Shown here piece by piece: positions 8,649 through 9,910 of a stretch of DNA of 44,119 bases. The stretch covers positions 1 through 44,119 of IMG/VR virus record IMGVR_UViG_3300037507_002302; one strand, 5' to 3'. The position numbers and the translations under genes were made by a program. The DNA comes from a virus. The notes beneath the pieces were generated by a model. That model was not told the origin of the DNA and ran no database searches. It saw only the letters and a program-made list of their open reading frames with translations. Each line of letters starts with the position of its first letter. The stretch's first letter is position 1.

Positions 8649-8669
8649 TTGGGGCACTTTTGGGGCACT
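8649..8669 (+). repeat. Paired integrase arm-type repeats, left arm
   Basis: Two direct copies of TTGGGGCACT (8649-8658, 8660-8669) at 11-bp spacing. A similar pair at 8871-8877/8882-8891 lies on the other side of the tRNA-derived core. Paired direct repeats flanking a core are typical of arm-binding sites of lambda-type integrases. Confidence 0.65.
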
Positions 8670-8772
8670 GTGTGCGCAAGTGAGTGAACGCGAGAGAACG
8701 GTACCGAACACGCATTTGCCGTGATTTCACGCACAAACCGCGTTCTGATGTTCGGGTGGCCGATGGCCGGTT

Positions 8773-8815
8773 CGGTTTAGGAAACCGCCGCTCTATCCAG
8801 CTGAGCTACGGCCGC
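8773..8815 (-). other. attP: attP core: 5' half of tRNA-Arg(CCT)
   Basis: Read on the minus strand, the block begins GCGGCCGTAGCTCAGCTGG and gives the acceptor 5' strand, TA, D-stem GCTC/GAGC, D-loop, base 26, anticodon stem GCGGT, the loop TTCCTAA with anticodon CCT, and ACCG of the 3' anticodon stem. The next base breaks the stem and no T-arm follows. A 43-nt tRNA fragment ending at the anticodon stem, ten bases from the integrase stop, is what a phage attachment core in a tRNA gene looks like. It carries the 5' half; most known tRNA attP sites carry the 3' part. Confidence 0.88.
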
Positions 8816-8824
8816 AAACAATTG

Positions 8825-9910
8825 TCAGGACGGGACTTGCGATGCTCTCTCCATCGACATGTCGATGGCTTTGGGGCGAACTTGGGGCACTGCGCCCGTG
8901 ACGCGGGCTAGGGTCTCGGGGAGGGTGGTGTGATAGTGTGCCGCGGCCACGGTGGGGTCGTGCCCAAGCCACTTGCACACGTCCATCGCTGGCAACGTCG
9001 CCAGCCAGTCGGACTCACAGGACTTGCGCAGGGTGTGGAACGGCTTGCCGTAGGGCTCGATGCCGGCCCGTGCCCGCAGCGCCTCCATCTGGCGGTAGGT
9101 GTTGTTGCCGCCGATCGGAGCGACGGACTGCTCGCCGGCGGGCAGTCGGTGCTGCACAGATTCCAGGATCTCGGCGAGCCGTGGCGTGATGGGAACCAGC
9201 CGGGTGCGCTTCTTGGTCGTCTGTGCGCCTTCGTGTCGAACCGTGAGGGTCCGATGCACCAGGTTCACGTCGGCCCAGGTCAGCGACCGGATCTCGTTGA
9301 TGCGAAGCCCAGCGAACCGTGCGAGAGCAATGGCGGCCTGCCACTCGGGCCGTGCGGTGGCGTCGATCAGCTTCTCGGCCTCGCTGGTCGGCAGATACCG
9401 CCAGGGCACGTCGGTCTTGACCATCGACCGGGGCTCGTGGTCAACCGGGTTGGCGGGCAGCGTGCCCAGCTTGACGGCTGAACCAAGGACGGCGCCGAAG
9501 CGCATGAGGTTCCCGCGCACCGTGTTGGTGGCGAGTTCTTCCGCCTGCATGGCCGCGCGCCAGGCCGTGATGGCGGCCCTGCCGATGCGGTCGATCTGCG
9601 TGGTCTCGCCGAAGTGTGCCAGCGTGCGGGCCTTGGTCTTGCCGTACCCGTCCATCGTCTTGGCGCTCAGCCCGACCGCCTCGTGCTGCTCCCACCACTT
9701 CCACCATGCGGCAAGGGTCGGCGATTTGCTGCCGACGGAACGCGCCGTGGGGTTGAGCAGGTGCTGCCGCGCGATCTCGTCGCACAGGCGGTTGGCTTGG
9801 GCTTTGCTCAGCTCGGACCGTGAGCCGAGGCTTTTCTTGTGGCGCTTGCCTGAGTCGTCGGTCCACTCGGCACGCCAGTAGTCGCCGTTGATGGCGAGGT
9901 TTACTCGCAT
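8825..9910 (-). CDS. int: Tyrosine-recombinase integrase (361 aa)
   Basis: It has an N-terminal AP2-like/arm-binding region (NGDYWRAEW), a SAM-like core-binding domain (about 60-150) and a C-terminal catalytic domain. The catalytic residues are visible: Arg in GLRINEIRSL (about 203), His-x-x-Arg in HTLRK (292-295), His in WLGHD (317) and the Tyr in AAAHYH (about 326). The start is the ATG at 9910 with GAGG upstream; the gene overlaps the preceding stop by ten bases. The gene ends beside attP, with arm-type repeats in its last codons. Confidence 0.92.
   Translation of the reverse strand: MRVNLAINGDYWRAEWTDDSGKRHKKSLGSRSELSKAQANRLCDEIARQHLLNPTARSVGSKSPTLAAWWKWWEQHEAVGLSAKTMDGYGKTKARTLAHFGETTQIDRIGRAAITAWRAAMQAEELATNTVRGNLMRFGAVLGSAVKLGTLPANPVDHEPRSMVKTDVPWRYLPTSEAEKLIDATARPEWQAAIALARFAGLRINEIRSLTWADVNLVHRTLTVRHEGAQTTKKRTRLVPITPRLAEILESVQHRLPAGEQSVAPIGGNNTYRQMEALRARAGIEPYGKPFHTLRKSCESDWLATLPAMDVCKWLGHDPTVAAAHYHTTLPETLARVTGAVPQVRPKAIDMSMERASQVPS
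8851..8868. repeat. Perfect 18-bp palindrome in the 3' end of int
   Basis: The sequence ccatcgacatgtcgatgg is a perfect palindrome between the attP core and the right-arm repeats. It may bind Xis, an IHF-like protein or the repressor, or it may form an mRNA hairpin near the end of the int transcript. It occurs once in the window. Confidence 0.6.
8871..8891 (+). repeat. Paired integrase arm-type repeats, right arm
   Basis: TTGGGGC (8871-8877) and TTGGGGCACT (8882-8891) have the same orientation and 11-bp spacing as the left-arm pair. They lie inside the C-terminal codons of int. The symmetry about attP supports a binding function. Confidence 0.6.

Follow-up and report, generated by a model that had tools for sequence, protein, structure and literature searches.

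A putative phage attachment site carrying the 5' half of tRNA-Arg(CCT), and the orientation of tRNA targets among related integrases

The site behind the integrase gene of IMG/VR virus record IMGVR_UViG_3300037507_002302 very probably serves a tyrosine integrase as attP, with recombination at the anticodon loop of tRNA-Arg(CCT) in the orientation that leaves the 5' half of the tRNA with the phage. The window, i.e., the whole stretch of DNA analysed here (44,119 nucleotides, positions 1-44,119 of the record), is virus DNA without terminal repeats. The features on which this reading rests are the following:

8825..9910, minus strand: int, tyrosine integrase of 361 amino acids (ATG at 9910; PF00589; PHROG)
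8871..8888, minus strand: putative int-side arm pair centred some 98 bp from the anticodon; int-strand sequence GCCCCAAGTTCGCCCCAA
8816..8824, minus strand: gap of 9 nt, CAATTGTTT, separating the stop codon of int from base 1 of the tRNA
8773..8815, minus strand: attP common block of 43 nt, corresponding to tRNA-Arg(CCT) from its base 1 as far as the 3' side of the anticodon stem (5' half)
8777..8783, minus strand: anticodon loop TTCCTAA (CCT, the anticodon, at 8779-8781), where strand exchange over 7 bp is presumed
8649..8666, minus strand: putative distal arm pair centred some 124 bp from the anticodon; int-strand sequence GCCCCAAAAGTGCCCCAA

Comparison of the common block with 20 Planctomycetota tRNA-Arg(CCT) genes revealed 42 of 43 identical positions with the closest of them (E of about 1e-17), in agreement with the original prediction that the block is the 5' half of this tRNA from base 1 to the 3' anticodon stem. 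The only mismatch is at tRNA base 4, where the phage has G and the nearest Planctomycetota tRNA-Arg(CCT) has C, and the match stops sharply past the anticodon stem. An ARAGORN search over the whole window yielded no complete tRNA gene. The block therefore equals one end of a tRNA and stops at a known sublocation, the anticodon, as an attP that targets a tDNA is expected to do. The anticodon loop is described in PMC8371274 as the overlap region in tRNA-targeting recombination, and because the blocks of relatives also end just beyond the loop, we take the loop of the window to be the probable strand-exchange region.

The assignment of the integrase is supported by a match to the catalytic domain PF00589 at 5.7e-13, which is above the curated Pfam cut-off, and by matches to PHROG integrase families (best 2.6e-48). 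The catalytic motif of tyrosine recombinases is R, H-x-x-R, H, Y, and residues R203, H292, R295 and Y326 of the predicted window integrase are invariant in a five-row alignment. A longer frame for int begins at 9979. A split ("suicidal") integrase of the SSV/pTN3 type was considered and rejected, as the core begins 9 nt past the int stop. As to the remainder of the phage, positions 16684-43750 of the window are T7-like, encoding a single-subunit RNA polymerase (41309-43750), a T7-type terminase, a head-tail connector, a nozzle and an internal virion protein, besides a weak Gp10A-like capsid match. Since T7-like genes, an integrase and an S24-type repressor occur together, the record appears to represent a temperate T7-like phage.

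In order to learn which tRNA half is usual in this family and on which strand, relatives of the integrase were gathered from IMG/VR and from genomes, mainly of Planctomycetota. The genomic survey covered 174 distinct bacterial int loci, which are a fetched sample of the matches, and tRNAs were sought from -200 to +400 nt relative to the int end. In 137 of these loci int converges with a complete tRNA or tmRNA, in a single locus a complete tRNA is on the same strand as int, and in the other 36 none was found nearby. The original statement that phages usually carry the 3' part is therefore borne out within the family, where 137 of the 138 complete tRNAs or tmRNAs at int ends are convergent, and is in agreement with the counts given for Islander, in which 3,760 islands have a 3' fragment and 159 of 3,919 a 5' fragment (PMC4383910). 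In viral contigs the orientation was judged against a library of 90 tRNAs, so that halves of other tRNAs may be missed; under these conditions the 24 contigs, including the window, comprised three with a sense 5' half, nine with an antisense 3' half (three of which, L150-L152, look like one lineage), eleven with no clear half and one, L153, with a weak antisense match. An Rfam scan for tRNA halves was dropped, since it scored the half of L006 weakly (E 8.6) and missed that of L149. These two contigs are the other sense members, and both carry bases 1-40 of tRNA-Gly(CCC) on the int strand, L006 with 100% identity and a gap of 9 nt, L149 with 97.5% identity and a gap of 88 nt. A spacing of 9 nt from the int stop to the first base of the tRNA is thus common to the window and L006, whose integrases are about 33% identical. 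Sense and antisense types alike have the half that they carry placed between int and the crossover, so that the tRNA is completed at the int-side junction. Besides these, a third arrangement was encountered in genome G652 (L264-L266): int is followed on its own strand by an orphan 3' half of tRNA-Thr(TGT) (bases 28-74), and the complete tRNA-Thr(TGT) stands at the opposite end of an element of 39.6 kb (G652:C97 485-558, 40059-40105). We also observed that, of the 138 relatives in which int adjoins a complete tRNA or tmRNA (among L013-L041, L072-L137 and L181-L263), 108 have an int frame that ends inside, or beyond the start of, the adjoining gene; as these overlaps are almost always antisense, the C-terminus of such integrases would be partly encoded by the antisense strand of a tRNA.

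The repeat TTGGGGC starts at 8649, 8660, 8871 and 8882 of the window and thus forms two pairs. All four copies read GCCCCAA in one direction on the int strand, and the int-side pair sits within the coding sequence of int, at its 3' end. That such pairs flank the core at equal spacing, as had been predicted, holds: the spacing is 11 bp on both sides, and two-sided 6-mer pairs (10-13 bp spacing) arose around the core in 0 of 300 dinucleotide-preserving shuffles. When relatives were scanned for exact 6-mer direct pairs with a spacing of 10-13 bp on both sides of the core, they were found in eight of the ten phage attPs that bear a tRNA half, with eight different motifs, namely GCCCCAA in the window, GGCTCCAA in L006, GGGTACAA in L149, GTGCCAAC in L007, GGTCCAA in L139, CGCACAA in L150, TTGCCCA in L146 and TGCACAAT in L148 (0 of 300 shuffles in each case). 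Exact two-sided 6-mer pairs were absent from L140 and L169. Among the 11 contigs lacking a tRNA half the 6-mer scan gave one two-sided pair, in L176, and a stricter 7-mer scan of 11 further viral loci gave none. The original prediction would have fallen had the repeats not been conserved beside related integrases; what recurs there is the pairing and its spacing, with another sequence. The arm motif of the window, TGCCCCAANNNTGCCCCAA (8650-8666, 8872-8888), was present in at least 119 IMG/VR stretches, and among the matches listed an integrase-like ORF lay within 2.5 kb in 39 of 80 loci, in most of which the motif is placed at the int 3' end. One contig with this motif and a relative of the integrase (L341) has no recognisable tRNA half near int. 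The motif stands beside many unlike integrases and, among the matches listed, 22 of 80 loci lie within 100 nt of a contig end, and it may therefore help to locate prophage borders. Considering the recurrence of pairs around the cores of relatives with other motifs and the occurrence of TGCCCCAANNNTGCCCCAA beside integrase-like ORFs, the GCCCCAA pairs are best read as arm sites of the integrase, the motif changing with the integrase.

Two other explanations of the site have to be weighed against these data. As an S24-type repressor gene (7816-8430) neighbours the distal side, the GCCCCAA pairs might be operators, for example of this repressor, rather than arm sites. We think this quite unlikely, because one pair lies inside int, because relatives have two-sided pairs with other motifs, and because of the integrase-like ORFs found near 39 of the 80 TGCCCCAANNNTGCCCCAA loci among the matches listed. 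Even less probable, to a degree that makes it hardly credible, is that the window represents a lysogen junction or a chimeric assembly, for which one could invoke the metagenomic origin of the virus record and its lack of terminal repeats. A lysogen junction keeps one arm only, whereas the window has one core between its two arm pairs, flanked by int and, on the opposite side, by the S24-type repressor gene, and L006 and L149 have the same layout. The record thus holds an unintegrated attP, flanked by putative arm sites.

The sole same-strand case of the genomic survey, L220 of genome G420, provides an integrated example. Its element of 20.15 kb (C10 123445-143597) begins with a complete tRNA-Met(CAT) at the int end, on the same strand as int, which runs into it. 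At the far end, about 20 kb away, a displaced 5' half of tRNA-Met (bases 1-42, 42/42 identical) follows its native neighbour cysC, a gene named from its translated sequence. Each junction has arm pairs GCGCTGCA next to it, an arrangement seen in 0 of 500 shuffles. Here the complete tRNA-Met is severed from its native upstream region. In G674, a genome of the same family as G420, an intact tRNA-Met lies downstream of cysC and an integrase is convergent on the far side of the tRNA; with the sense int of G420 and the convergent int of G674, one host site (cysC-tRNA-Met) has been used in both directions. The geometry that the original prediction proposed for the integrated state, a complete tRNA after int and a displaced 5' half, is therefore seen in a relative. 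The G420 element is, however, a distant relative of the window, and its int frame overlaps the tRNA whereas that of the window does not. In L220 the complete tRNA-Met (G420:C10 123445-123517) is inside the int frame in the sense direction, so that processing by RNase P would strip the int stop codon from the message, and the int end would differ between the circular and the integrated form.

A lysogen of the window phage itself was sought by several routes. Apart from the window itself, no IMG/VR sequence matched a 41-nt pattern covering tRNA bases 3-43. Searched with up to 3 mismatches in 392 Planctomycetota genomes it gave no exact match, the best being one mismatch in five genomes (G390, G135, G085, G372 and G244), and in 75 genomes of the class of G390 there was likewise no exact match, with G390 alone at one mismatch. 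Searches with int gave 0 of 154 in the class of G244 (E 1e-80) and 0 of 2 in the order of G390 (E 1e-50), and phage and plasmid collections yielded distant integrases only. Junctions and a displaced 5' half were thus seen in the relative G420, but neither a host nor a lysogen of the window phage was found, and we infer its integration. With the usual acceptor GCGCCCG in the host, the change at base 4 would unpair 4:69, implying either that the host has another acceptor stem or that the rebuilt tRNA carries a mispair.

From the anatomy of the site, integration can be pictured as follows. Core sites bound by the integrase would be the two arms of the anticodon stem, and the GCCCCAA pairs with their 11-bp spacing would serve it as arm sites. 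With the carried half usually placed between int and the crossover, the complete tRNA would be rebuilt at the int-side junction. In most relatives the tRNA is antisense to int, in which case the 3' half would be carried and the rebuilt tRNA would keep its own upstream region, and in the window phage the opposite orientation would result in carriage of the 5' half. The tRNA-Arg(CCT) of a lysogen would then be complete, on the same strand as int and 9 nt behind it, and would lack its native promoter, since the promoter region of the host would remain at the opposite end next to a 5' half of no use. The rebuilt tRNA might be transcribed from int-side sequence, either by read-through from int or from a promoter in the int 3' end, and might be freed by RNase P. 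A small change of the core could let one integrase use a site that is, save for the anticodon, a near-perfect palindrome in the other direction.

A rebuilt tRNA of this kind may be transcribed together with int or independently of it, or may not function. Consensus scans, which are weak especially outside well-studied phyla, found no sigma-70-like promoter at 8550-10300 of the window. In the int 3' end of G420 they found TACACA-18-TATAAT on the right strand (2 sites versus 0.5 in shuffles), the sites in G420 being weak. This match speaks for a dedicated promoter in the int 3' end that would serve the tRNA independently of int transcription, while the lack of anything similar in the window and the weakness of such scans speak against it; we regard a dedicated promoter as a serious possibility, though one somewhat short of an even chance. 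An expected contrast, with terminators between int and the tRNA confined to the convergent type, was not supported: they occurred in 4 of 20 convergent loci from genomes and in 0 of 5 attPs of the convergent type, versus 0 of 3. It has also to be considered that the 5' half serves as a recombination core only and that no working tRNA-Arg(CCT) results, tRNA-Arg(UCU) reading AGG in its place. Both tRNAs whose 5' halves were seen in phages, tRNA-Arg(CCT) and tRNA-Gly(CCC), have anticodons for which wobble partners could stand in, which counts for such a loss, as do the base-4 change, which would weaken the acceptor stem formed with the commonest host 3' half, and the absence of a promoter-like site upstream. 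Yet the identity reaches base 1 in three phages, far past the anticodon arm needed for recombination, and the 5'-half arrangement of G420 is at tRNA-Met(CAT), with 42/42 identical, which together make loss of the tRNA improbable.

The members that carry a 5' half do not form one clade in either of the trees obtained. In a tree of 39 rows the three phage members of this type need three changes, two of which are forced by well-supported branches, and in a tree of 30 rows that includes L220 four changes are needed, three of them forced. In particular, L148, which targets Pro(GGG) in antisense, and L149, which targets Gly(CCC) in sense, are sisters with support of 95/84 in the 39-row and 91/72 in the 30-row tree. 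The position of the window varies; it groups with L145 (80/78) in the former and with L139 (96/90) in the latter. Within G420, the integrases L220 and L248 are 77% identical and share one arm motif in one direction, although L220 uses tRNA-Met(CAT) in the sense and L248 tRNA-Lys(TTT) in the antisense orientation. It is thus the core that flips, the arms keeping their place relative to int.

We propose that the cause of these flips is probably the near-palindromic nature of the anticodon arm. The arm of tRNA-Gly(CCC), for example, reads CCAGCTT-CCC-AAGCTGG on one strand and CCAGCTT-GGG-AAGCTGG on the other. In terms of palindrome score, tRNA-Arg(CCT) and tRNA-Thr(TGT) reach 7/7 pairs, tRNA-Gly(CCC) 6.6 on average, and the tRNA-Met(CAT) group, one gene of which is used in G420, averages 5.2/7. 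Many antisense targets are palindromic too, and the score by itself fails to separate sense from antisense targets. It was also observed that L148 and L149 both have CCC on the int strand, the target being Pro(GGG) in antisense and Gly(CCC) in sense orientation, and complementary anticodons may thus offer a route to target switching. A wider reading, which we put forward tentatively and consider possible rather than probable, would be that in this mainly planctomycete integrase family the anticodon arm is a nearly symmetric core that can be used either way with the arm sites fixed, that lineages have flipped repeatedly, some of them between near-sisters, and that in sense lysogens the tRNA joins the transcription unit of int, which would couple the supply of a tRNA to the expression of int.

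The class of elements carrying a 5' half is rare but established by Islander and pTN3, and the window is a further member of it. The 5' class of Islander is similar in that a 5' fragment is displaced and the full tRNA stands at the opposite end; the passages cited here give a count for that class but name no integrase family with repeated switching of orientation (PMC4383910). The integrases of pTN3-like archaeal elements (Thermococcales) resemble that of the window in that attP carries the 5' half of a tRNA, with 41 bp shared in pTN3 and in vitro substrates spanning bases 2-44 of tRNA-Leu (PMC5495485, PMC8371274). However, the pTN3 site is inside int and integration splits the gene, whereas the window core lies 9 nt past the int stop, and pTN3 belongs to another domain of life and to another integrase lineage (PMC5495485, PMC8371274). 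In pTN3-like elements the integrase promoter is reported to drive expression of such tRNAs (PMC8371274, PMC5495485), a situation described as seldom met in bacteria (PMC8371274). Similar to the window, mycobacteriophages of cluster J are reported to have attP 3' of the integrase gene, with a tRNA core about 100 bp from int and paired 10-bp direct-repeat arm sites on both sides, but their core is the 3' half of tRNA-Leu, which keeps the promoter (PMC3706429). In the tRNA-dependent lysogeny of Fionnbharth, too, an integrase acting at a tRNA gene alters the tRNA source of the lysogen, in that case by means of a core of about 10 bp and a whole phage tRNA gene (PMC10865867). This mode was rejected for the window, which has a 43-nt block and no tRNA gene. 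In the open-access literature we found no paper on the orientation of planctomycete integrases and no description of repeated orientation switching in one integrase family with fixed arms.

The half of a tRNA that phages generally restore is the 3' one, which leaves the promoter in place. Elements related to the window phage have adopted the 5'-half arrangement several times by using the tRNA site in reverse, and a single bacterial integrase family shows both solutions. Natural pairs, namely the cysC-tRNA-Met site in G420 and G674 and the 77%-identical integrases of G420, make it testable what sets the orientation of an integrase at a palindromic anticodon arm and how the host tolerates a tRNA that has been cut off from its promoter.
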